A DNA stretch of 24,050 nucleotides, taken from positions 1 through 24,050 of the IMG/VR virus record IMGVR_UViG_3300021957_000299. One strand, written 5' to 3'. Source of the DNA: a virus. The position numbers were made by a program, and so were the translations under genes. Shown here piece after piece: positions 5,313 to 23,832 of this stretch. The first letter of the stretch is position 1. Every line of letters starts with the position of its first letter. The notes beneath the pieces are model-generated. The model worked only from the letters and a program-made list of their open reading frames with translations, was not told the origin of the DNA and did no database searches.

Positions 5313-8165
5313 ATGCAAACGAAAGAATTTTTAGACCTTGTATGGTCTGATCAGGGGTACTACTGCGTTGTAAGCAAGGACCAACAAGATAATGTAACAC
5401 CTATATTCTTAAATACAGTTGATGATGCAGTAGCTAAAGTTAATGTTTTGCTGAAGAACAAGTTAGATGTGTACTACACATGTTCAACTTGGGTAGAGAA
5501 CACAGACAGAAAAGCTAAAAATGCAAGAGAGCAGAAGATATTTTGGCTTGACATTGATTGTGGTTTCGATGCTAAGAAGCGCAGGTATAAAGACTACAAA
5601 ACTAAAGAAGATGCTATGGTTGCGTTGAGAAAGTTTACAGACGCAACTAAACTCCCTGCACCAATGGTAGTAGATTCAGGTAATGGGTTGCATTGTTACT
5701 GGCCGTTTGTTGATCCTGTTGCACCTGCTGTGTGGAAACCTATAGCACAGGGACTTAAGTTTCTCTGTGTTAAACATGGTTTTAAATCAGACTCTGTTTG
5801 TACTTCAGACATATCAAGAATACTTAGAGTGCCTGGAACTAAAAACTTTAAGGATGTAAAAAACCCAAAAAGCGTGACCGTACTACAGCCTTGTAGTCCG
5901 TTTCTATTTGATGATCTAGCAGCAGTCATTCCTGCGGAAATAATAACCCATGCTAACAAACCAAAGAGACCTATGGACGAAGCTACCAAAGCAATACTGG
6001 GTAACCATTCTTCTAGGTTTAGAAAGATAATGGAACGTTGTAAAGTAAACGATGGTTGCAATCAACTTGAACACATAGCTATAAAACAAAATGAAATAGA
6101 AGAACCACTATGGAGAGCAGGTTTGTCCATTGCCGTACACTGTGAAGATAGAGATATAGCTATACACAAAATATCTAGAGGTCATGTTGACTACGATTAT
6201 GAACTAACAGAGAAGAAAGCCGATAGCATACCAGGCCCACACTCATGTAAACAGTTTGAAATGCAAAGGCCTGAAGGGTGTAAAAATTGTCCACACAAAG
6301 GCAAGATAACAACACCTATTCAGCTTGGTAGAGTTGTTGCCAAAGCAAGGGGTGCTGATAATGTAATAGAAGCACACAGCGAAGCACTTGATCAAAAAGT
6401 TACTTTTAAAATACCTGACTACCCATACCCATACTTCAGAGGTAAAAACGGAGGCATATATAAAACTATGCCTGATGATGACGATGACGGTGTTAAGATT
6501 TATGACTATGATTTTTATTTAGTAGAAAGACTACACGACCCTACATTAGGTGAGTGCTCATGGTTTAAACTACATCTACCAAAAGATGGAGTTAGAGAGT
6601 TTATAGCTAGAACTTCTGACCTGCTTACTAGAGACAGAGCAAGACAAATTTTAGTTGATTATGGAGTTATAGTGCATGGTAAGCAGATGGAGTTAATGAT
6701 TGATTACATAGTTAACTCGGTTCAAACCCAACAACGTACAAACGAAGCGTCACTAATGTATAAACAGTATGGTTGGAATCCAGGGTCTATAGAAACTAAA
6801 AACAAAATACTTATAGGCAATAGAGAGATAAGTGCGTTTGGTGTTAAGTATGTACCTGTAGCTGATGAACTTAACGAGATAAACCCTACACTGCAAAAGA
6901 AAGGGGACTACGAAGAATGGAAAAAAGGTGTGTCTATTTATGAAAGACCAGGTATGGAGCTACGTGCTTTTGGGTTCTTTTGTGCTTTTGGTTCTTTACT
7001 TATGCCTTTCTTTGAGCATAGGGAAAAATCAGCCATAATAAATTTATATAACCCTGAAACAGGACAAGGTAAAACTTCTATACTACAGGCTATGACTAGT
7101 GTGTATGGTAATCCTGATCTTAATTCAAAACTTGTGCAGGTGTGGGGCGATACAGAAAACTCTATTATTCATCGTATGGGTTACATGAACAACTTACCTG
7201 CTGCAGTAGATGAGATGACAGATATAACACCTCGAGAACTACATAAGTTTTTAAAATTTATATCAACAGGTCGTGGACGTAATAGGTTAGGTAACGGAGT
7301 TAACAAAGAAAGAGCAAACGATACTGTGTTTAACTTGATATGTGTAGTGTCTAGTAACACAGATTTTAGACAAGTTATGTTTTCTGATAGAGCAAAAGCT
7401 AGTGGTGAGATGGCTAGGTTTATTCAGTTACCTATAGAGTTAGATGAGACTATATCTAAGTCTGAAGCTGATGAATACTTTAGTAAGTTCTTTGACAACT
7501 ATGGACACGCAGGTGAAGTCTATGCACAATACTTGATAGCAAATTTAGATCAAGTGAAAAAACAATTGAAAATAACACAACAAAAGATAGATAAAGAACT
7601 CAACATTAAAGGACAAGATAGAAAGTTTTCAGCTACGTTAGCTGCAGTATTTTTAGGTGCAGTCATTGCTAAGAAACTAGGCATACACAATATAAATATT
7701 GATCCTGTATATAAAGCCATAGCTAAAGAACTAAGTAGATCTAAAGTATCGCTACAAGAAGCAGACTTTGATGCTGTTCAAACGCTAGGTGACTTTATTA
7801 ACACAGCTAAAAACAGCACCTTGGTTATAAACAGTAAGGCTGATTCAAGAGGGGGACTAGTAGAAGCACCGATGTTAAGGCCCAATCATGATTTAAAAGT
7901 ACGTGTAGAGCCTGACACTAACACTATCTATATACCTGCATCTATAATGAGAGAGTATGTAAACAGTAAAAAAATTGACTATAGTGACTTTATTAAAGGT
8001 TTAAAGTCAAACGGAGTGCTTAAAGAAGCATCGAAACTAAAAGTACTACATAAGGGTCTAGAGATTAGTGGACCTTCAGTTAGATGTATATGGGTTGACA
8101 ATTCATCATTTGATGAAATTAAAACAGATAATTTAGACTTGGATATACCGAAAAATGTTAACTAA
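5313..8165 (+). CDS. Primase-helicase fusion (AEP/PrimPol-like domain + DUF927-type ATPase)
   Basis: The 950-aa protein probably both primes and unwinds DNA at the phage replication fork. The N-terminal part (about 1-200) has archaeo-eukaryotic primase hallmarks: an acidic pair in WLDIDCG (D80, D82), the SGNGLHCYW motif (S122-W130, catalytic H127), a further Asp near 166, and RILRVPGTKNFK. A Cys/His cluster C312-x10-C323-x2-C326-x-H328 could bind zinc. The C-terminal ATPase has Walker A GQGKTS (584-589), a Walker B-like VDEMTD (632-637) and a sensor-like VVSSNTD (678-684), resembling the DUF927/SF3-like helicases of phages and SCCmec. About 240 further residues follow. The start has AAAGG (5302-5306) at 6-nt spacing. 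No DNA polymerase lies in the window, so one must be elsewhere in the genome or supplied by the host. Confidence 0.82.
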   Translation: MQTKEFLDLVWSDQGYYCVVSKDQQDNVTPIFLNTVDDAVAKVNVLLKNKLDVYYTCSTWVENTDRKAKNAREQKIFWLDIDCGFDAKKRRYKDYKTKEDAMVALRKFTDATKLPAPMVVDSGNGLHCYWPFVDPVAPAVWKPIAQGLKFLCVKHGFKSDSVCTSDISRILRVPGTKNFKDVKNPKSVTVLQPCSPFLFDDLAAVIPAEIITHANKPKRPMDEATKAILGNHSSRFRKIMERCKVNDGCNQLEHIAIKQNEIEEPLWRAGLSIAVHCEDRDIAIHKISRGHVDYDYELTEKKADSIPGPHSCKQFEMQRPEGCKNCPHKGKITTPIQLGRVVAKARGADNVIEAHSEALDQKVTFKIPDYPYPYFRGKNGGIYKTMPDDDDDGVKIYDYDFYLVERLHDPTLGECSWFKLHLPKDGVREFIARTSDLLTRDRARQILVDYGVIVHGKQMELMIDYIVNSVQTQQRTNEASLMYKQYGWNPGSIETKNKILIGNREISAFGVKYVPVADELNEINPTLQKKGDYEEWKKGVSIYERPGMELRAFGFFCAFGSLLMPFFEHREKSAIINLYNPETGQGKTSILQAMTSVYGNPDLNSKLVQVWGDTENSIIHRMGYMNNLPAAVDEMTDITPRELHKFLKFISTGRGRNRLGNGVNKERANDTVFNLICVVSSNTDFRQVMFSDRAKASGEMARFIQLPIELDETISKSEADEYFSKFFDNYGHAGEVYAQYLIANLDQVKKQLKITQQKIDKELNIKGQDRKFSATLAAVFLGAVIAKKLGIHNINIDPVYKAIAKELSRSKVSLQEADFDAVQTLGDFINTAKNSTLVINSKADSRGGLVEAPMLRPNHDLKVRVEPDTNTIYIPASIMREYVNSKKIDYSDFIKGLKSNGVLKEASKLKVLHKGLEISGPSVRCIWVDNSSFDEIKTDNLDLDIPKNVN

Positions 8166-8349
8166 CGGAACAGACTATCAAATAGATTGGCCTTCTTTTA
8201 CACCAGGAACATCTATATTCTTACCTGCAGTAGATACTAAAGCAGCATTAGCAGCTATAGAAAAAGAAAGTAAAAGACTTGAGTTTGAGTATGTGCATAA
8301 AATAGTTATAGAAGATGGCATACAAGGCATTAGAGTCTGGCGACTATAA
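8155..8349 (+). CDS. Conserved small protein downstream of primase-helicase, 64 aa
   Basis: The ATG at 8155 overlaps the primase-helicase end by 11 nt. There is no strong ribosome-binding site (only GGA at 8141-8143), so translation is probably coupled. The sequence has a compact alpha/beta look: DWPSFTPGTSIFLPAVD, then a helix AALAAIEKESKRLEFEY, then a strand pair HKIVIEDGIQGIRVWRL. The 'PG-S-F-P' start and 'GIRVWR' end resemble, from memory, short phage proteins of unknown function that sit behind replication helicases. No function is assigned. It is the last gene of the rightward operon and ends 2 nt before the stop of the leftward operon. Confidence 0.6.
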   Translation: MLTNGTDYQIDWPSFTPGTSIFLPAVDTKAALAAIEKESKRLEFEYVHKIVIEDGIQGIRVWRL

Positions 8350-8351
8350 AT

Positions 8352-11300
8352 TTATTTAGTATTAAAGAGAGGTAAGTTTGCCTGCACTCTAATTTTAGGT
8401 ACGCTTTTTAATACTTTATTTAAATTAACATCTATTTCTCTTAGCTTTTTAGCTTTAGCTTGAGCGCTTAGTTTTTCGTCGTTGATAATTACTTTTCTTT
8501 TATCTCTTTGTGTTTTAATTCTTTTGTTTAAAGTGTTTATTTGACTTCTTTTAGATATTATAAATTTATTATCTTCTTTATATTCTTTTAACCTTTCACC
8601 TGTATAGTTACCTAAAGAGTTAGTTACTCTATCAGACATTTCTTTTAAGTCATAAAATTGATTTAGCGCTGCTCTACCATTGGGACTATACATAACAGCA
8701 CTGATGCCAGGCAATTTATCTATTGGCGTACTTGGTAGTGGGTTATTTACAAATTGATTTATTACCCCATCAATTATACCTAGCCCTGCTGAACCAAGAG
8801 TTCCAAAAGTGCCTCTTAATAAATGATCAACTTTTAATGGTGAGAAACCTAATTCACCAAAACCCCTTGCAACATATGAAGTACCTGCATTAACTTGTAA
8901 ATCAGTTTCTTTTCTTTCTTGGAATGGACTTACAATAGGACTACCTGTAAACAAGTTGTAATTCATTGCTACTTCAATAGGAGCTTTTATTGCTTGAGGA
9001 AATAGAGCCGGAAATAGAAGCCCTCCAGCTAAGCTTTCAGAAACTGCTTGTCTTACTCTTCTACCATCTATTTCTTGATCTGTGCCTTCTTTAGTAATAA
9101 GGTTATACAAACCTTCAGGTAATAATTTATACAAAAACGCTAACTCACCACGAAGTGGCAGCTTCATACCGGTGCCTGGTATTATATAAGACCTAAGTTT
9201 TTCATTATCAGGCAGTTTTTCATACTCATCATCGCCTCCGACTATCATTGCATAGATAGCATTGAGCACCATAATTTTTGCTGAAGTTATAGCAAATAAT
9301 TTTAAAGCATTTTTTTTGTCTGTAGCTGTTAAAAACTTACCTCTCATTACATTTGTAAGAATATCCATACCTTGTAAGTACGCATTTAAAAATGGTATGG
9401 TGTGAGTAAGTAATCTTAAACCTGCACTGTTACCTCGTTTGTTCCAGTTAATAATATTTATAGCTTTGTTAACAGCTTCTATTTCATTTCCACCTACTAT
9501 AGTTCCATCAGGTTGTAGTTCACCACCAGTTTCTAATAATGTTTGTTCATATATAGCTTTACGTTGAGCTAAATCAGAATGTGTGGCTAGATCTTCAAAG
9601 TATGCAGCAGCAGCCCTTGCTTTACTTTCAGGTAATAAATTAAACTCTCGTCTAGTCTTTCCTATAATCTCATCAGCTGTTAAGCCGTACCCACCAGTAA
9701 CCCCTGCTCTTCTCATTTGTTGAATTATAGGAGAATTAGGATCGTTAATAATTTCAGTGTAACTACTTAAAACTCTTTTTGCTAATTGAAATGGGTTTTT
9801 AACTCCTGAGTAAGCCGCAGCACTTATTGAGTCGTTAAATACTTGATACCCTTGAAATATCGGGTTTGCTGTAATAGTCTGTCTTAGCAAAGTAGCTAGT
9901 GCAGCGGGGACATGAGTGTCTACTAATGGTTGTTCAGGGCCTCTAACAGCAACTGCAAACCCAGGATCTGAGTAATCAACAAATACTCGTTCCCCATTAA
10001 ACATCACTGGTGCAGTATATCCAGACCTACCTGAAGGAATGTCTGCTTCGCTTTCATAGGTCACTAAGTCATTAGGATTTTCGTCTCTTATACGTTCAAG
10101 TTGTTTTCTTTGTTTTTCATCTAGACCTTTACCTACTTTGTCTTCTGCCTCTAAAGCTGCAATTTTTTCTTTGTTTCTCATTCCAACAAAGCTACTTGCT
10201 TCTTGATTGCCATGGTTTCTTAAAGCTGCATTTACAGACCAGAAATGTTTCATTACAAAATTATCTAATACATTATCAACTTGTTTATCGCTACCACCTT
10301 TATATTTAAACTCTTGACCTATATCAGTATAGCCTTTAAAAAACTCTTTTATTCCGTTTTGTGAAGCTTCTAACTCATCAAGAGTTTTGTGTAGAGGCAC
10401 GTACCAATCACGACTTCTAAATACATCTGCTTTTTCTTTACTATACACACCGGTAGCTTCTAACAAATCAATGTTATGTTGTTGTATTTGGTTTAACATA
10501 GTAGATATAGTTTTAAGTTCAGGGTGCTGTTGTTCAGATACAAGATAATCTTTATCAGCTAAAACACGCATATCATCGTCTGACATCTTTGTTTTTTCTA
10601 CATTCTTTATATTATTAATTTTTTGAGTTAGTTTTTTTCTTTCACTTTTATTTTTAGTGTTGGATCTTTCGTTTTCTAATTCGCTTATTCTTTTATCACG
10701 ATTTTCGTTTAGCTGTTGTTCACCTTGCAATCTTCTACCAATTAAATACTCTTGCACCATTTTGTTAGCTTCTTTTACTCCTACCTTGTCAGCTAATTTT
10801 GTAACTTGATTAAACACACCTTTAAGAGTAGCGTTATCTTGAATGATTTTAGGCATTCCGTTTTCTTGAATTGTTACAAACCCCATGTCAGCTGCGCTAG
10901 CTGCTATTGCATTAGATTGTAGTGTAGTGTCCATAATAATGTCAGTTCTAGCTCTTCCAGACAGTGCATCGTTTACTACTTTATTAAAGCTTTTTGTCTG
11001 AGCTTCTTCTTGTATGGCTGCACTAGAATTAGCAAAATGAGTTCTTGCTCTAATAAATAATCCAGATAATGATTTATCAGGATAATCAACAGCTGTCGGT
11101 CTTCTAAATATTCCTTTAACAATTCTTTTAAATACACCATCACTATTAGTTTTTACATCAAACTTTCTTTCTCTAAATTCTTCTTTTGTTTCGTTTTCAC
11201 GTGGTTTATTGTATAAAGGATCTGAACCTACAATTCTATTAGGAGGGCCATCTAATAAGTCTTGGGCTACTACCAAGTAATCATTAAGTAATGAATTAGG

Positions 11301-14300
11301 TACATTAGTAGAGAAGTTAAACAATCTTTTTATTGCAGTAACAAGATCAGACCATAAAGAATTTAAATTATTTTTAGGGTTAAGAGGTGCTGTCTCACTT
11401 AAAAATCTTTGGAATTGCACATCTTGAAGTGCGTAGTTAACAAATTCAAACACGTTATTTAGTTCTCTATCAAACCTGCCATTAGCAGCTGCTTGTGCTC
11501 TTTCGTATATTTTGTTTATATATCTACCAGCTTCGTTTTTAGGTTTACCGCTTCTAGTGAATGCATCATTCATTTTCTTAGCTTGAACAGCATGAAGAGC
11601 TTCATGGATTATAGTACCTATATTTGCATTGGGGTGTACACGCACATTGTTAGTGTCAGCTGTATAGGCTCCATAAGCTCCACCACCATCTCTAGTTCTT
11701 ACTTGTTCAATTGAAAACCCTGTTGTTTGCAGGTTAGGAACTTTTAACATTGTGTCAAGCAATACAGTTTCTACTTCGCCCAACACATTACCGTACTCAG
11801 ATTTAAGTATTTGTAAAGCCCTTTTTAAGTTTTTAACACCTTTAAATCTGTTTATTTGATCAGGACGTTGTACATAATTAGGGTTACCTGCAGTGTGGAA
11901 ATCATCTGTTTCAGGATTAAAGTCTGCTAAATCTTCCTTTGCATATCTTTTTGCTAAACTTTTCGCATCATTTGATTCAAGACCTAATTCTACTAATAAT
12001 TGTTCTTCTATTTTTTGCTGAGCTTTTCTTTCTTGTTGCTCTGATAACTCAGCTTTAGGTTTGACTATTTTTTGTTCTTTTATTCTTTCATTTCCTTCTT
12101 CTATATAATTTTTAATATCAATTGGAGTATTAAAATCATCTTGAGCTTCAAGTATAAAATCTTCATTTTCGCTTCGTCTTATGCTTAACCTACTAATAAT
12201 CTTACGAAGCTTTGTTTTATCTCTATTTAGTTCTGTTGGTAAAGCTATTCTTTCATTGTTTTCATTAGTTGAAACCTCGATTAAACCTTCTGATACTAAA
12301 GAGTCTATTTGTTCAGGGGTAGAGCCGGTAGCTTCTGTTATTTGTGTAAACGTCACACCTTTTGGTCTTTTACCAATGTATTCAACAGTTTGATTAGATG
12401 TTTGAATTACTGGAGCGTTAACAACTTTAACTGGTGGTTTTTCTACTTGTTCTTTTTCTACTTGTTCTTTTTCTACTTGTTCTTTTACTACTTGTTCTTC
12501 TACTACAGGTGTTTTAGGTGCTTCTTGATTTACGTCATTTAATACAGCTTGTAGTGGATTAACTGGAGCTTTTACTTTTTCAGGAGTTGCTTGAATTTTT
12601 TGTACAGACTTGTTGTTTTTAACTTGTGTAGTTACATCTATACCAGGAAACACAGGTAACTGATTAATTAGTGTTTTTAGTTGCGCAGGATTAATCTTTA
12701 TACCTGCACCGCTTAAAGCTCTTTTTAAGGTTGAAGGAGTGTATGATTTTTTAGGGTCTACTTTTATAAAGTCTACAATTTGTCCTCTTACATCTTCAGT
12801 TAGTGAATCGTCGACATTTCCTTTTCTTGTTCTAGATCCAGGAGCAGTTGATATATTGTTGACCACTCCTTCTCCGTCAAGATCTGCAGTTCCTTCGGCA
12901 TTGGTTTTTTGGCCGGCTCTCCGTGGGCCAAGTACTGTAGTCCTTCCTGTATTTGCACTAGACTGAGATTCTTTGTTAAAGTTGTATTTGACATTAGGAT
13001 TATTCTCCTCTATTAAAACTGTAAAATCATTAATAGCTTGTTCGTTTATTTTACCAGTATGTTTATCTAAGGTGTCTAAAAATAATTTAGTATTGTTTGG
13101 CTTGTTTAAGTTTAAATGTGTTAGGCGTTTAAATGCTTTAGAGTTAGGGTTTAAACCAAACGAAGTTAACGTATCTTTATCAAGGACACCTGGTGTTACT
13201 GTAGCTTTTACATTTTTATTTTCTTTGTAAAAATCTTTTAGTACATTTTGAGTATCTTTTAATAAATCATCAACCGCTTTCTTTTGAGTTTCAACGCTTT
13301 GCATAGTGACAGATTCATCAAGTTCATTTTGAGCTTTAGCTATTATTTTTCTAAGTCTGCTTTTTTCTGGTGCGTTGTTATCTAAAGAATTTTCTGCTTC
13401 AACTGCTACTTCTAAAGCCGCTTGCACTGGGTTTGCATCTTTTTGAGCCGCATCAAACATAGCTCGATTAGGTAATAAACTAACAAGAGCTGCATTAGAA
13501 TCTAAATCTTTCTTAACTTCCTCTGCTTTAATATCTGCTCTAGCATCACTTCTTGCCTTCACAGCTGAAACAGGAGATAAACCACCTGTTAAAGTTGTTA
13601 ACGCTGCTACCTCTTTATACTCGGCTATAGCTTCTTCGCTAAATGGATCTGCACCTGCTTGTATTTTAGTAATAATTTCTTGACCTACTTCAGTAGGGAC
13701 TTCAGATCCGGCTATTCTTACGAAACCTTTAGCAGAAGCTTTAGTAAGACCTTCTTCAGCTATTTTTTTACGTAGTGCACCAGGGGGTAGTTTCTTTTCT
13801 ATCCCTATTAACCTTGTTAACCCTGAAGCTTTTAGTCCTATAAGATCTAAAGCTACTTGGGGCACAGTAGCTAATGCAGCTGTAGCAGTATCAATATCTA
13901 CAGGTCGCCCTGCTTTTATATCTTCTTGAGCTTGTTCAGAAATATTACCACCGAATTGAGGAAAGAAAGATCCAAGAGCTGCGCCTACAATACCACCAGC
14001 TACTGTTCCTACTCCTGGAACTACCGAACCTATAGCCGCACCCGTTGCACCAGATGCAAGAGAAGGAAATATCATACCTATAGCTTCACCAAATCCACCA
14101 GGAAGTTGTTTAAAGAGTTCCATAGTGCCTTCTACACCACCTTCATCCCATGCATTTTCTATGTCAGCAAAGCTAAATCTAGTTCTTGGGTTAGCTGCTT
14201 GATCTGCATTAAATTCTTGTAAAGCTTCTACACCTGTATCACCACCAGGTAGTGTAGCACTTAATCCGACATCCGCTATGCCTAGAGTATCGCTTATACC

Positions 14301-14474
14301 ACCGCCTAAAGATTCAAAGAATTTTGCATATTCTTTTTCTTGTGGAATTGGTTCTGCTGGAGGAGGTATAGTAGGTAGTATATCTTTAACAATAGCTGCT
14401 TCTATTTGTTCTGGCGTCATGCCGTCTTCAAATTCTACTATGCCTACCCCTTCAATATTGACTGGTTGAGTCAT
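8352..14474 (-). CDS. Giant polyvalent virion/ejection protein with zinc-metalloprotease and LPD38-like regions
   Basis: The 2040-aa product is probably an internal virion protein ejected into the host. The N-terminus carries GVGIVEFEDGMTPEQIEAAI, a short block common at the start of podoviral internal proteins. A glycine-zipper hydrophobic stretch (about 128-175) could cross or disturb a membrane. Residues about 320-900 are charged and largely helical or disordered, with a PxV/EKEQV repeat (about 659-678). HEALH (H957, E958, H961) plus E1010 in FEFVNYAL forms a gluzincin-type zinc protease signature, as in phage polyvalent proteins. A long helical region follows. An LPD38-like C-terminal region (about 1690-1960) has PFLNAYLQGMD, a hydrophobic segment near 1720-1745 and a final charged coiled coil. 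It is the last gene of the leftward operon, 5 nt after the 605-aa gene, with AGGGA upstream. It contains an embedded +1-frame ORF (12800-12994). Confidence 0.78.
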   Translation of the reverse strand: MTQPVNIEGVGIVEFEDGMTPEQIEAAIVKDILPTIPPPAEPIPQEKEYAKFFESLGGGISDTLGIADVGLSATLPGGDTGVEALQEFNADQAANPRTRFSFADIENAWDEGGVEGTMELFKQLPGGFGEAIGMIFPSLASGATGAAIGSVVPGVGTVAGGIVGAALGSFFPQFGGNISEQAQEDIKAGRPVDIDTATAALATVPQVALDLIGLKASGLTRLIGIEKKLPPGALRKKIAEEGLTKASAKGFVRIAGSEVPTEVGQEIITKIQAGADPFSEEAIAEYKEVAALTTLTGGLSPVSAVKARSDARADIKAEEVKKDLDSNAALVSLLPNRAMFDAAQKDANPVQAALEVAVEAENSLDNNAPEKSRLRKIIAKAQNELDESVTMQSVETQKKAVDDLLKDTQNVLKDFYKENKNVKATVTPGVLDKDTLTSFGLNPNSKAFKRLTHLNLNKPNNTKLFLDTLDKHTGKINEQAINDFTVLIEENNPNVKYNFNKESQSSANTGRTTVLGPRRAGQKTNAEGTADLDGEGVVNNISTAPGSRTRKGNVDDSLTEDVRGQIVDFIKVDPKKSYTPSTLKRALSGAGIKINPAQLKTLINQLPVFPGIDVTTQVKNNKSVQKIQATPEKVKAPVNPLQAVLNDVNQEAPKTPVVEEQVVKEQVEKEQVEKEQVEKPPVKVVNAPVIQTSNQTVEYIGKRPKGVTFTQITEATGSTPEQIDSLVSEGLIEVSTNENNERIALPTELNRDKTKLRKIISRLSIRRSENEDFILEAQDDFNTPIDIKNYIEEGNERIKEQKIVKPKAELSEQQERKAQQKIEEQLLVELGLESNDAKSLAKRYAKEDLADFNPETDDFHTAGNPNYVQRPDQINRFKGVKNLKRALQILKSEYGNVLGEVETVLLDTMLKVPNLQTTGFSIEQVRTRDGGGAYGAYTADTNNVRVHPNANIGTIIHEALHAVQAKKMNDAFTRSGKPKNEAGRYINKIYERAQAAANGRFDRELNNVFEFVNYALQDVQFQRFLSETAPLNPKNNLNSLWSDLVTAIKRLFNFSTNVPNSLLNDYLVVAQDLLDGPPNRIVGSDPLYNKPRENETKEEFRERKFDVKTNSDGVFKRIVKGIFRRPTAVDYPDKSLSGLFIRARTHFANSSAAIQEEAQTKSFNKVVNDALSGRARTDIIMDTTLQSNAIAASAADMGFVTIQENGMPKIIQDNATLKGVFNQVTKLADKVGVKEANKMVQEYLIGRRLQGEQQLNENRDKRISELENERSNTKNKSERKKLTQKINNIKNVEKTKMSDDDMRVLADKDYLVSEQQHPELKTISTMLNQIQQHNIDLLEATGVYSKEKADVFRSRDWYVPLHKTLDELEASQNGIKEFFKGYTDIGQEFKYKGGSDKQVDNVLDNFVMKHFWSVNAALRNHGNQEASSFVGMRNKEKIAALEAEDKVGKGLDEKQRKQLERIRDENPNDLVTYESEADIPSGRSGYTAPVMFNGERVFVDYSDPGFAVAVRGPEQPLVDTHVPAALATLLRQTITANPIFQGYQVFNDSISAAAYSGVKNPFQLAKRVLSSYTEIINDPNSPIIQQMRRAGVTGGYGLTADEIIGKTRREFNLLPESKARAAAAYFEDLATHSDLAQRKAIYEQTLLETGGELQPDGTIVGGNEIEAVNKAINIINWNKRGNSAGLRLLTHTIPFLNAYLQGMDILTNVMRGKFLTATDKKNALKLFAITSAKIMVLNAIYAMIVGGDDEYEKLPDNEKLRSYIIPGTGMKLPLRGELAFLYKLLPEGLYNLITKEGTDQEIDGRRVRQAVSESLAGGLLFPALFPQAIKAPIEVAMNYNLFTGSPIVSPFQERKETDLQVNAGTSYVARGFGELGFSPLKVDHLLRGTFGTLGSAGLGIIDGVINQFVNNPLPSTPIDKLPGISAVMYSPNGRAALNQFYDLKEMSDRVTNSLGNYTGERLKEYKEDNKFIISKRSQINTLNKRIKTQRDKRKVIINDEKLSAQAKAKKLREIDVNLNKVLKSVPKIRVQANLPLFNTK
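12441..12500. repeat. 15-bp in-frame tandem repeat, 4 copies
   Basis: Three exact copies of TTCTACTTGTTCTTT (12441-12485) are followed by a fourth with two changes (12486-12500). On the minus strand they encode the KEQVE pentapeptide run in the disordered part of the giant virion protein. Confidence 0.9.
12800..12994 (-). CDS. Probable overprinted small gene inside the giant gene, 64 aa
   Basis: This ORF is on the same strand as the 2040-aa gene but in the +1 frame, overlapping its codons 494-558. ATG 12994 is preceded on the minus strand by AGAGGAG with 10-nt spacing. The product is soluble and gene-like: it has SLVQIQEGLQYLAHGEP, then KPMPKELQ, then LTEKEWSTIYQLLLDLEQEK, with an amphipathic helix and few odd residues. 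The pattern L..QEG..YL..G...PMP..L..LT..EW......L..EKE resembles, from memory, a stand-alone small protein of marine podovirus-like phages. In contrast, the main frame here is a low-complexity G/T/R/N linker (e.g. TGRTTVLGPRRAGQKTNAEG). Local G+C is high: 29 of 50 bases at 12883-12932 by my count, in an otherwise A+T-rich gene. Either both frames are used, or a small gene became trapped in a gene fusion. Confidence 0.55.
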   Translation of the reverse strand: MSNTTLTKNLSLVQIQEGLQYLAHGEPAKKPMPKELQILTEKEWSTIYQLLLDLEQEKEMSTIH

Positions 14475-17787: not shown

Positions 17788-18201
17788 TTATAAATTTTTC
17801 TCTACTACACTCGTTACGGGCTGTAACCCTAATTTTAATCTAAATAACCTTGCTTGAGCTTCTTTTGCATAAGCCCTTATTTTAGTGACTCCTTGTAACC
17901 TTGCCCAGTCTTCATATTGTTGAACAGTATTTTTACTAAACACTTTTTTACCCCCCATACAAGTAGTTAAAGCAACTCGGTGATTAGTGTAATCAATAAG
18001 CTCTACAGTGTAAGCTCCAACTATTTCCTTGTTATTTACCACCAAAAACAAGTGCTGTCTACCGCTAACTAATTCTTCTTTTAGGTATTCTAAACCATAA
18101 TCAAGATTATCGTCATTAAGAAAAGCTATATTTAATAAAGAACTAGCTTCTTCCCATACTTCACAAACTTTATCTTTTGGTACCGTATAAACCTGACTCA
18201 T
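17788..18201 (-). CDS. GNAT-like protein of the virion module
   Basis: The 137-aa product looks like an acetyltransferase-fold (GNAT) domain. HLFLVVNNKEIVGAYTVEL and HRVALTTCMGGKKV fit the central strands. The helix VQQYEDWARLQGVTKIRAYA followed by ARLFRLKLGLQPVT fits the final helix-strand unit with the usual '-LG(F/L)-' turn. A GNAT-type protein in this place is common in short-tailed phages, between tail and internal-protein genes. Whether it acetylates anything or is structural is unknown; the acetyl-CoA loop (normally Q/RxxGxG/A) is poorly matched around CMGGKKV. The start is ATG 18201, not the TTG one codon upstream. The ATG shares its A with the TGA of the 820-aa gene (TGATG), and there is no clear ribosome-binding site, so translation is probably coupled. 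Confidence 0.65.
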   Translation of the reverse strand: MSQVYTVPKDKVCEVWEEASSLLNIAFLNDDNLDYGLEYLKEELVSGRQHLFLVVNNKEIVGAYTVELIDYTNHRVALTTCMGGKKVFSKNTVQQYEDWARLQGVTKIRAYAKEAQARLFRLKLGLQPVTSVVEKNL

Positions 18202-20663
18202 CAAGCGGGCATAAACCTTTCTGGAACTATTTCTGGTGATTGTTTTTTCCTACCAGTCCTAGCCATTCTAACTCTATCCATCATACCATAAAATTCTTTT
18301 GCCCCTGCTTCAGAAGAGCCGTTACCTATGTGACTAACTACATCAGCTGGTATTACAAACTCACCTTCTGATAAAGCCGCTGGTTGTTCGTTATCAATGT
18401 TTGCAGGTATATCATCACTCATACCATCACCTTGAACATTTATATCTCCACCACCTAAGTATCCGCCTTCTGCAAACTGCGCAATTCCGGCTGCAGGTCC
18501 ACCATAGCCTGAAAAAGCAGTTGGCATACTAAATTGATTGGGTGCACCATTGCCACCACCAATTCTAAAAGGCATATGTACAGGTTTTGATTTTTCCCAT
18601 TTTTTTGTATCCTTATTATATGTGTGACTTGCCTGTGTAGGTTGGGTATACCCTGAATAAATATTACCTTGTCCGCCTGGTGATCCAGGGGTGTAATCAA
18701 TAGGAACTTCATACCCACGTAGCATTTTAAAATGAGTATCTCTAAGAGCTTGATTAGGTGACTTTCCTATAGTTCCTGAACTTACGTTTAAAGAACCTAC
18801 GCCTCCTGTTAAATTAGAAGGTGTACCTCTAAATCCCCCTACATTTATATTAGAGACTCCTACAGGGGCAGATACAGGGGCAGATACAGGGGCAGATACA
18901 GGGGCAGATACAGAGGCAGGCGGTGTATAGGTTCTTCCTATATTTCTAGCTATAGCTGCTTCCATTCCTTGTTCTACAGCACCACCCTCTGCAAATCTAT
19001 TAACATACCCGTAAGCATTAGTTCGATCACTATTAAAATAGTTGCCAGCAGGAGGTGTTCCTTTTACGTACGTACCATCTTTTAGCTGATAGTGACTTGG
19101 TTTTCTACCTCCAAACACAGACTTCACTCCAGGGTCATAATCAATAGGCACAGTCATTTGTGTTCCATACGCACCTGTCATTATTCTTGTTTTAGGTTTA
19201 GCCGCTTCTGCAGCTATAGCATTAGGTGATTGTCCTGTAGTTCCTGTATTAACATTTAAAGAACCTAGGTCATTAAAATTAGAAATACCACCAGTATTTA
19301 CATTAGAAGCAGGTGCAGGTGCAGGTGGGTTATATGATCTACCACTATTTCTAGCTATAGCTGCTTCCATTCCTTGTTCTACAGCACCGCCTTCTGCGTA
19401 TCCGTAGCCCCCTGCTGTATAACCATAAGGATTATTTAAATTTAATCCAGTCTGACCTGATAGATTAAGTTGCCCATCAGGACCTCTAAATCTACGGTCT
19501 TCAAATTGAGTCATGTCTATGCTTTGTTGTTCAAAATCTTCTGGTTCTAGTCCACCCGCTATTCCTCCAGCAACAGGTAAACCAAACTTCATTGCCATAT
19601 CTATGTTATCTAGAGGTACTGCCTTTGACATTGTGTATGATTTTATAGATCCATCAGGATTAAATACCGGCACTTGTTCAGATTGAGTACCTAATATTTC
19701 TGTAGCTCTATCATAATCATTAACTAATGTATCAATACCTCTACCCATGTTGCTAACTCTATTTCCAGCTCTATTAGCTAAACCTGTTAACCCATCTTCA
19801 GAAACTTGTCCGTAAACAGCTTCTCCAGGAACTCCTGAACCTGGCATTTTAAATTTAGTAGCTGTATCTGCAGTGGCTTGAAACCCTGGTCCTTGAGGGT
19901 AAGCAGGGTTAGCTGCAACGGGAAGATTATTAACTGGTGGACTACCAGTTACTCCTCCGCTTTGAGTATAATTTCTATACATAGTTGGTTTGTTAGCTGG
20001 AGGAGATTGAAATCCAGGTCCTTGAGGATAAGCAGGATTAGTACCGGCTAAATTAGGGGTAACGTTTCTAGGTATTGATCCAACGTTAGTACCTTGGAAT
20101 TCAGGTCCTTGAGGGTAAGCAGGGTTAACAGCAGCAGAGCTTAATCCACTTTTTATTCCCATAGTACCGCCACCTGCTGTGCTTGAAAAACCTGTCATAC
20201 CTGGACCTGATGGTCCCGCGATAGTCGGGTTCATATTAGAAAGGTTTTGTTGTATTTGATCTGTTACAATCTCACCTGTTGTACTCCCTATTGGAACTGA
20301 TTCTGCTCCTAACAAATCAAGAGATTTTCCTAAACTAGCGCCACCGTAAGCACCTAAACCAGCCCCTATACCAGCACCAAGATCATTTTCTAATACAGCA
20401 GTTGCTCCACCTAACATAAGCCCCGCCATCATTGGGTCCATACCTGCCGCTGCTAATCCAACTCCAGCAACCATAGGAAGTAAACCCCTTAAATTAAAGG
20501 CTTCTGGCATTCCAGTATTAGGGTTTACAGTTAGTGAAGTACCGTTAGCTTGAGCTAGTTGTTGAAGCCCTGCTACTTCTTCTGGTTGCATATGCACTAA
20601 AGTAGAGTCTCCTCCTCTACCTAAAGTAGCCAATCCTTGCGCTGTGTTTTGATAGTCTACCAT
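18201..20663 (-). CDS. Large repeat-containing virion protein with AEGG modules, 820 aa
   Basis: Residues 18-56 carry the GDSTLVHM...E...L.......TVNPNTGMPEAF motif shared with the 490-aa protein. Residues 62-118 are an apolar Gly/Ala/Leu-zipper. Three NPAYPQGP(G/E)FQ repeats lie at about 180-262. Two related modules beginning AEGGAVEQGMEAAIARN (about 421-556 and 557-727) each contain a SLNV(N/S)(T/S)G...SP block. A conserved end starts with AEGGYLGGGDI, followed by GDGMSDDIPANI, ALSEGEFVIPADVVSHIGNG and a basic tail. From memory, the GDGMSD(D/S)IPA...EGEFV(I/V)PADVVS..GNGSS block is widespread near the C-terminus of podoviral virion proteins. This looks like an internal or tail-assembly protein. 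AGGA lies 6 nt before the ATG, and it follows the only real gap in the leftward operon. Confidence 0.7.
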   Translation of the reverse strand: MVDYQNTAQGLATLGRGGDSTLVHMQPEEVAGLQQLAQANGTSLTVNPNTGMPEAFNLRGLLPMVAGVGLAAAGMDPMMAGLMLGGATAVLENDLGAGIGAGLGAYGGASLGKSLDLLGAESVPIGSTTGEIVTDQIQQNLSNMNPTIAGPSGPGMTGFSSTAGGGTMGIKSGLSSAAVNPAYPQGPEFQGTNVGSIPRNVTPNLAGTNPAYPQGPGFQSPPANKPTMYRNYTQSGGVTGSPPVNNLPVAANPAYPQGPGFQATADTATKFKMPGSGVPGEAVYGQVSEDGLTGLANRAGNRVSNMGRGIDTLVNDYDRATEILGTQSEQVPVFNPDGSIKSYTMSKAVPLDNIDMAMKFGLPVAGGIAGGLEPEDFEQQSIDMTQFEDRRFRGPDGQLNLSGQTGLNLNNPYGYTAGGYGYAEGGAVEQGMEAAIARNSGRSYNPPAPAPASNVNTGGISNFNDLGSLNVNTGTTGQSPNAIAAEAAKPKTRIMTGAYGTQMTVPIDYDPGVKSVFGGRKPSHYQLKDGTYVKGTPPAGNYFNSDRTNAYGYVNRFAEGGAVEQGMEAAIARNIGRTYTPPASVSAPVSAPVSAPVSAPVGVSNINVGGFRGTPSNLTGGVGSLNVSSGTIGKSPNQALRDTHFKMLRGYEVPIDYTPGSPGGQGNIYSGYTQPTQASHTYNKDTKKWEKSKPVHMPFRIGGGNGAPNQFSMPTAFSGYGGPAAGIAQFAEGGYLGGGDINVQGDGMSDDIPANIDNEQPAALSEGEFVIPADVVSHIGNGSSEAGAKEFYGMMDRVRMARTGRKKQSPEIVPERFMPA
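18862..18909. repeat. 12-bp in-frame tandem repeat, 4 copies
   Basis: Four exact copies of ACAGGGGCAGAT occur, followed by a partial diverged copy. On the minus strand they encode repeated Val-Ser-Ala-Pro in the linker of the second AEGG module of the 820-aa protein; the first module lacks it. Confidence 0.92.
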
Positions 20664-21642: not shown

Positions 21643-23832
21643 TTATCCCCTCATTCCATCTGGTTTAGCATCGACTCTTGTATCACCGAGTTGCCATTGT
21701 GTGCCTAGAGTATCTGATGATATTTTAAAGTTCATTTGTCGTCCTCGTGCTCTTATAAATACTTGATTTGTATATTGGTCTATTGTCGCTGCTGTTGTAG
21801 TAACACCTCTAGTTAATGTTGCTCCCGCTACATCCGTAGTCTGTGTCGCGGCTCCTGGAAACTTAGTGACTGCAATTGCCATATCGACTGCAGGTGTTAG
21901 TGTGGCTCCTGTTACAGGATTGACTGTTTGTGATGCAGTAAAGTCTACATCAGGTATAACTTTCTTAGTCAACATATAAAACTCACCATCAGCTATATCC
22001 ATAAAGGCTGACTCAATGTATGAGTTGATAGCCAGAGGTGCTGCACCTAAAGGCTGTCCATTATTAGGACCTTTCTCATGTGAGTATAAGTATCCACCAG
22101 AAGTAGCTAGTGCATATTCGTTAACTCCTGCATCTACCCAAGTTGTTCTGTTAAGTTGTCCATAATACCAAATATCATCACGGTAGTTGTAGATTACATA
22201 ACGATCAATTGTAACCGAAGGTGTTGCTCCGCCAGAACAATAGAACCATATGACTTCATTAAATTCTTTGTTTGTACCACCATAAACAAGTTGACTTTGT
22301 TCTCTATTAATATCTTCAAATACATATCGTAGTAAAGGACACTTAAGAACATTAACTCTACCATCATATACAAAGAAGTTATCTGTTCCCATCCAATACA
22401 TATTGTTATTAACACTTGCCCACGCATTAGGCCCCATAATGTTAGTATCATTAGATAAAAGTTGTAACCCAAATACTTCAGCTGTTCCTAAAAATTGTAG
22501 TGTACTAAGTGATGTGTCTGTCCATATAAGAGTTTCTTGTCTTACATTAGCACCGGTAACAATTTTGGAACCCTCTTTAACAAATAAGAACCCTGCTGTA
22601 TTAGCAAGTTCAGGTTTCCACACTTCTGGTTTAGGACCTATATCTGCATTAACATCAGCAAATCTAATTAACATTGGATCAAATGTGCCACCACTATAAG
22701 AGATAGATTGATAACTTCCTGCAACAGAAGCAGGGGACGTAGTAGACGCTGATAGTGTGTACGTAAAAGTCGTTGTGCTTGTTACTGTAATTTGATAGGT
22801 ACCTGAATAAGCAGTTGTTGTTTGACCAGAAAGATATACATAGTCATTAGTAGATAATCCATGAACACTTCCGGTAGTTACCGTAGCTGTTGTGCCACTA
22901 CTTGTAATACTTGAAATAGTAGCTCCCGCAGTAGATACTTCACTATATGCACTAGCTCCTAAAGATAGTAAATGACCACTAGGTGCAAAAAGTATTTTTT
23001 CATTTGCAGCCGGTACAGCAATTGAACCAGATAAAGAACTTAGTAATACCGCTCTATTATTAAAACTTACATTATAAGTCCAGTAGTAAATAGCTCCTTG
23101 ATTGTTTAGATTAAAGATTAAGTCGTTATTAAAGTTGTCCATAAACACTAATCGTACATCTACGATAGCTGGAAGTGTAGCTCCTGAACCCCAAGTTCCT
23201 CGACTCCATGTACCTGCACCCCAACCATAGCCTGCAATAGAAGAATCGGCTCCAATATTAATCTCAAACTCTGCAGTAATTCCAGTACCACCACCGGTAG
23301 CGGCAGAAGTAGCAGTACCTGCTGTTTGGATAGTAAATGTACTACTAGTTAAAACCGTTACTTCGAAGTTTAAATTAAGTTGTGGGGCTGTAATACCACC
23401 AACTGCAGCTGCACCAGTAAAAGTAACAAAGTCTCCTGTAGTAGCTCCATGACCTGCAAGTGTAACTAAAACTTGACCCTCAGTACCTGTAGTAGTATTA
23501 GTAGTAAAACAATTATCTGTAGAAGGAGTAGTTGAAGTAGTAAATGTAGCTCGTATAGGAGTTATATCGTAAAGAGTTGTACCGGCACGAATGTAGATTT
23601 TTTTAGTTGTTGCTAAACCTGCAATAGCTGCACCTGTATCTATAGCATAAACAAATAGTTTGACTGCTTCTCCTACATAGGGAGTAAAAGTAGCTGCTTC
23701 CCAGCCTCCTATTTTTTCAGGAAAACCTTCTCTAAACCGTATCATGTTGCCATCATACCAACCGCCCATTTGGGCTAAATCAGTTTTATCTCGGTTTATG
23801 CCAGGTCTAAATTTTAATTTACTAAGCGGCAT
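21643..23832 (-). CDS. P22 gp10-like tail/DNA-stabilisation protein with two inserted beta domains, 729 aa
   Basis: The N-terminus FRPGINRDKTDLAQMGGWYD, then RFREGFPEKIGGW (residues 8-44), is the signature start of P22 gp10-like packaged-DNA stabilisation proteins. These form a ring at the head-tail junction or tail hub. Repeated W/Y/G-rich beta segments (GYGWGAGTWSRGTWGSG; NNMYWMGTDNFFVYDGRVN; YNYRDDIWYYGQLNRTTW) fit a propeller-like fold. Two similar inserts interrupt it, centred on GHGATTGDFVTFTG (127-140) and VHGLSTNDYVYLSG (323-336). Each continues to a TSSTFT/TSTTTFTYTL strand, and they resemble the small beta domain that phage annotations call E1_FCCH-like. The C-terminus returns to FIRARGRQMNFKISSD...WQLGDTRVDAKPDGMRG. 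AAAGGA of the ribosome-binding site overlaps the end of the endolysin gene. Confidence 0.78.
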   Translation of the reverse strand: MPLSKLKFRPGINRDKTDLAQMGGWYDGNMIRFREGFPEKIGGWEAATFTPYVGEAVKLFVYAIDTGAAIAGLATTKKIYIRAGTTLYDITPIRATFTTSTTPSTDNCFTTNTTTGTEGQVLVTLAGHGATTGDFVTFTGAAAVGGITAPQLNLNFEVTVLTSSTFTIQTAGTATSAATGGGTGITAEFEINIGADSSIAGYGWGAGTWSRGTWGSGATLPAIVDVRLVFMDNFNNDLIFNLNNQGAIYYWTYNVSFNNRAVLLSSLSGSIAVPAANEKILFAPSGHLLSLGASAYSEVSTAGATISSITSSGTTATVTTGSVHGLSTNDYVYLSGQTTTAYSGTYQITVTSTTTFTYTLSASTTSPASVAGSYQSISYSGGTFDPMLIRFADVNADIGPKPEVWKPELANTAGFLFVKEGSKIVTGANVRQETLIWTDTSLSTLQFLGTAEVFGLQLLSNDTNIMGPNAWASVNNNMYWMGTDNFFVYDGRVNVLKCPLLRYVFEDINREQSQLVYGGTNKEFNEVIWFYCSGGATPSVTIDRYVIYNYRDDIWYYGQLNRTTWVDAGVNEYALATSGGYLYSHEKGPNNGQPLGAAPLAINSYIESAFMDIADGEFYMLTKKVIPDVDFTASQTVNPVTGATLTPAVDMAIAVTKFPGAATQTTDVAGATLTRGVTTTAATIDQYTNQVFIRARGRQMNFKISSDTLGTQWQLGDTRVDAKPDGMRG

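Follow-up and report, generated by a model that had tools for sequence, protein, structure and literature searches.

The best-known overprinted genes are those of small RNA or ssDNA viruses. The overprinted genes of viruses, as reviewed, use an alternative frame of a linker-like, tolerant region to encode a new protein, with a codon use that is atypical (PMC8227390). In the lambda spanins, Rz1 is a small gene on the same strand as the larger phage gene Rz, in its +1 frame and fully nested within it, a conserved pair often missed by gene callers (PMC6139136). Another class that must be considered is that of the polyvalent proteins, which are encoded near late genes and are believed to be injected, with processing by a metallopeptidase of their own (Iyer et al., 2017; PMC5512222); in a word search of that paper, LPD38 appears once and the word "overlapping" is absent.

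The locus described here has features of all three. It lies in what we call the window, the whole 24,050-base IMG/VR virus record of a marine phage that was analysed, and it consists of a 64-codon ORF on the minus strand (12800-12994; ATG 12994-12992, TAA 12802-12800), the product of which is MSNTTLTKNLSLVQIQEGLQYLAHGEPAKKPMPKELQILTEKEWSTIYQLLLDLEQEKEMSTIH (64 aa), inside a long minus-strand gene (8352-14474) for a 2040-aa LPD38 polyvalent/virion-type protein. The same-strand, +1-frame, 64-aa ORF of the initial annotation is thus confirmed, the offset of 1480 from the start of the long gene setting the phase at +1. It shares with Rz1 its small size, strand, phase, full nesting and the conservation of the pair; in contrast, Rz1 is a lysis lipoprotein with a signal peptide and a lipobox, and the embedded protein looks soluble, acidic and helical, lies inside a giant virion-type gene and shows no sign of a lysis function. 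Inspection of the alignment of 21 sequences found no cysteine and no hydrophobic leader; the small protein has neither lipobox nor leader and is not a spanin. As in the reviewed virus cases, a tolerant, linker-like region carries a protein in its alternative frame, and the codon use of that frame is atypical; unlike the best-known of these, the gene belongs to a large-genome dsDNA phage and has lasted although its host gene has diverged deeply.

The long gene is the last in a cluster of long minus-strand ORFs of late, virion type, and among its upstream members there are matches to a DNA ejection protein and to a virion structural protein. Its LPD38 domain (PF18857, E=2.5e-22; aa 1748-1907, positions 8754-9233) scores 80.3 bits against a curated cut-off of 27, and the domain is above the cut-off in 12 of 12 related records. 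The HExxH motif HEALH (aa 957-961, positions 11592-11606), invariant in an alignment of five proteins, is a candidate zincin-type metallopeptidase motif, and a glycine-zipper-like membrane stretch (aa 142-170, positions 13965-14051) is indicated by a sub-threshold match to PF13488 together with inspection. With LPD38 over the cut-off, an HExxH motif and late neighbours, the long protein fits the polyvalent proteins (PMC5512222), its peptidase activity being a prediction, whereas the small protein carries neither LPD38 nor any other Pfam domain. A conserved domain of the form TLTSxGLxxxSxAxKxL...HTGKINE (aa 428-490, positions 13005-13193), present in all the homologues found, lies directly 5' of the embedded gene, and the DNA of the embedded gene itself encodes, in the long frame, a low-complexity linker (aa 495-558, positions 12801-12992). 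This linker had been recognized in the initial annotation, and it is indeed loose and fast-changing, with 26-30% identity to divergent relatives.

Other observations concern the long protein and its surroundings. In the linker after the embedded gene (approximately 12348-12524, minus strand; aa 651-709) there are EQVVKEQVEKEQVEKEQVEKPP-type repeats, and its relatives have similar acidic or proline repeats of varying length. The N terminus is of one type in L002 (L002:6305-6900) and L014, and of another in L003, L013 and the window, as though the protein underwent modular exchange over its first few hundred residues. The virion-type protein at 21643-23832 has about 28-35% identity to proteins of roseophages CRP-901/902 and Pelagibacter phages HTVC023P/027P, which makes the window a distant relative of these phages. 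An acetyltransferase-like gene (17788-18204, minus strand; PHROG 1249) is found in the virion cluster, and the gene in that position in CRP-901 is annotated as GNAT. At 8155-8349 (plus strand) a further ORF of 64 aa converges on the end of the long gene and overlaps the last part of a 950-aa primase/helicase-like gene; an ORF of like size occupies the same place in L001-L004, and a PHROGs search with it gave no match.

Besides the window, 24 related contigs, all of the sequences being metagenomic, were obtained with three queries: the small protein, the long protein or parts of it, and the domain upstream of the small ORF. The embedded ORF is in all 24, with place and +1 phase unchanged (in L004 the edge of the contig cuts it), even in those contigs, obtained with no use of the small ORF as query, where the long protein is just 23-26% identical; those found solely by the long protein or the flanking domain were not chosen for the small ORF. 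It always begins shortly 3' of the conserved domain, and it is in single copy per record in the 15 viral records searched. The 21 distinct full small proteins have 55-65 aa, end in (I/L)H and differ in length in-frame. Among the relatives found there is no outgroup with the flanking domain and without the nested gene, and a scan of bacterial genomes gave no relative of the small protein or of the long one. In L001 the small protein is 97% identical to that of the window, and the downstream part of the long gene is far more diverged than in L003, a pattern that suggests recombination within the long gene.

Purifying selection on the embedded frame is strong and exceeds what the long frame would impose. 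Within the overlap, the identity to the window in the small frame is 84% in L003, 83% in L002, 62% in L013 and 44% in L014, against 64, 56, 30 and 26%, respectively, in the long frame of the same bases. Between the window and L003, the substitutions in the overlap fall 17/9/3 at long-frame codon positions 1/2/3, the 17 being taken by position 1, which is the mostly silent third position of the small frame, whereas outside the overlap position 3 changes most. In clade B (10 sequences, 45 pairs), the differences at small-frame positions 1/2/3 are 553/213/949, and the rate at long-frame position 3 in the overlap, 0.084, is below that of every other one of the 1728 windows (median 0.499). In clade A, the ratio of change at position 3 to that at positions 1 and 2 is nowhere as low outside the overlap. 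These pairwise counts share ancestry and are not independent events, although the pattern recurs in separate clades. When the observed substitutions were placed at random, none of 4000 trials retained as many identical small-frame residues in four of the pairs; in the closest pair, 0.025% of trials did.

The long frame is itself maintained, as both its openness and its first-position composition are kept; the statement in the initial annotation that the embedded frame is the selected one thus stands with regard to the strong selection on that frame, but not in leaving the long frame free of constraint. When the long protein of the window was recoded with the codon use of its gene, a 64-codon +1 frame stayed open in 0.07% of trials (0.03-5% with the homologues), a rarity by which the embedded ORF is more than chance; in the +1 and +2 frames of either clade, no stretch open in every aligned sequence is longer than the one that coincides with the embedded ORF. 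Conversely, when the small protein was recoded in the same way, the long frame was open in 0-1.6% of trials, and it is actually open over the overlap in every homologue. The third-position G+C of the small frame is 0.52 in the window, against 0.17 for the long gene, and 0.45-0.84 in the homologues, against 0.15-0.31 at the third position of the same genes, as would be the case if the first position of the long frame constrained these bases. The local rise in G+C noticed originally, 29/50 at 12883-12932 against 37% in the whole window, was counted correctly, but about nine other places of the window also reach 29/50, and thus G+C alone is not diagnostic of the embedded gene. An antisense ORF (12739-12966, plus strand), open throughout group A but not in group B, was taken to be a by-product.

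The small protein is confidently predicted to be a compact helical fold: AlphaFold2 with 21 sequences gave a mean pLDDT of 88.2 and a pTM of 0.67 for the L036 protein, with helices at 6-17 and 32-53, an earlier model of the window's own protein with 11 sequences having reached a pLDDT of 76.6. It is acidic in 21 of 21 sequences (net charge -1 to -8). Sequence searches of PHROGs, Pfam, NCBIfam, PADLOC and the PDB gave nothing significant or credible, a weak match of three members to PHROG 20714 (best E=0.0089) not being accepted, and the fold search of a viral library with the model gave no match. In the PDB the best fold match, a homeodomain (Z 4.5, 3.1 Å over 54 residues), is in the range of a common helical arrangement and was rejected. 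Among overprinted nested genes, a kind already known, the small protein represents a new family.

With regard to initiation, the window reads AATAGAGGAGAATAATCCTA-ATG at the embedded start, with a Shine-Dalgarno-like AGGAG (13005-13009, minus strand) 10 nt 5' of the ATG, a spacing that is a little long and counts against it. The motif is spelled by GAG-GAG in the long frame, where GAG makes up just 13% of the Glu codons. All 21 distinct sequences have, ahead of the start codon, a Shine-Dalgarno-like match of at least 4 nt; this codon is ATG except in L061 and L081, which use GTG. In the window an in-frame TAG (13010-13012, minus strand), which overlaps the Shine-Dalgarno stretch, closes the embedded frame five codons 5' of the ATG, leaving it open from 13009, and its position favors internal initiation over entry by frameshifting.

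Explanations other than a nested, internally initiated gene have to be weighed against these data. The local conservation and the raised G+C could reflect an RNA or DNA signal, in which the nucleotides and not a protein would be conserved, yet this is hardly credible, because the substitutions are three-periodic and track the silent positions of the small frame, the length changes stay in-frame, and start, stop and Shine-Dalgarno-like motif are all kept. A programmed +1 frameshift, yielding a truncated long protein that ends in the small sequence, would agree with a phase that is invariably +1; it is nevertheless very improbable, given that an in-frame stop stands 3-15 codons before the small-frame start in 20 of 21 sequences, that the Shine-Dalgarno-like motif lies in or near the gap between this stop and a conserved ATG or GTG, and that a non-systematic inspection revealed no shared slippery site. 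Since each relative found keeps it at one and the same place, the embedded ORF very probably makes a real protein, and there remains the matter of its origin. The initial annotation had favored a fusion, in which the two neighbours of a separate small gene joined into one and the resulting long frame came to run across it; such a history would suit a small protein predicted to be well folded, its location where domains of the long protein meet, as expected of a former gene junction, and the syntenic last gene of roseophage CRP-901, which has just 760 aa. However, every homologue is nested in the same long gene. The stand-alone homologues suggested for related phages were not found, either by tblastn with seven natural versions and a hand-written consensus against 50,697 phage records, which gave solely matches of E>=5 judged to be chance, or with a small-protein profile against 22 phage genomes, which gave no match and had no positive control among isolates; of the tblastn matches looked at and rejected, H68 is in the annotated frame of a larger gene and H69 in a helix-turn-helix-like ORF. 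The small gene gp84 of the late cluster of HTVC023P, considered as a separate version, is an unrelated membrane-type protein, and CRP-901 gp31 is also unrelated. Nor are the flanking genes split in the 24 relatives, with the exception of L033, where one recent frameshift (8911-8918, by comparison with the 93%-identical L039), well downstream of the small ORF, leaves the long gene as two ORFs, perhaps through an error of sequencing or assembly. Finally, the codon use of the small frame is atypical, its mean log codon frequency being -1.58, against -0.86 (SD 0.12) for windows of the long gene and -1.15 for the long frame in the overlap; rare codons are the usual mark of a newcomer and would point to overprinting on an older long frame, although codon use can be distorted by the long co-existence of two frames, and so would indicate the order of ages without proving it. 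With neither a stand-alone homologue nor a split host, and with this codon use, a fusion is unlikely, and the most likely origin of the small gene is that it was overprinted on the older long frame, within a tolerant linker.

In summary, we consider it highly probable that this is a real and ancient protein-coding gene, fully nested in the +1 frame of a giant LPD38 gene, translated by internal initiation and, as its most likely origin, overprinted on a linker. If we accept this, ribosomes would initiate internally on the late mRNA at the small gene's own Shine-Dalgarno-like site, a small acidic helical protein and the giant protein would be made from the same message, and the former might act as a partner of the latter, or of its complex, in assembly, storage or ejection. 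The constant linkage at one site suggests that the two products work together, and from location and conservation we tentatively propose the role of small partner, as a possibility ahead of its competitors. The main rival, to which we give somewhat less credit, is an effector, aimed at the host or at its defences, that does no more than make use of the late message, as the protein is small, acidic and has no virion homologue, and the polyvalent proteins of phages are believed to carry effectors of this sort (PMC5512222). Nevertheless, its linkage with the long gene is invariant and one-to-one, at one site and in a single copy per record, and there is no match in PADLOC. Effector genes are usually gained and lost easily, which also counts against it. 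Returning to the partner role, it seems improbable that it would go so far as that of an obligate partner or inhibitor, binding the nascent giant chain and holding the HExxH peptidase or the membrane segments inactive until ejection; if it were so, the nested gene would be a co-produced safety device for an injected multi-effector protein.

The arrangement has persisted while the host protein has dropped to about 25% identity, and thus the phage probably requires both products. On comparative evidence that is strong, a fully nested gene of deep conservation is in this way added to those of the large dsDNA phages, where gene callers tend to miss such genes, and the pair offers a tractable case for how overprinted genes arise and last, as well as a handle on the assembly and control of a giant ejection protein.
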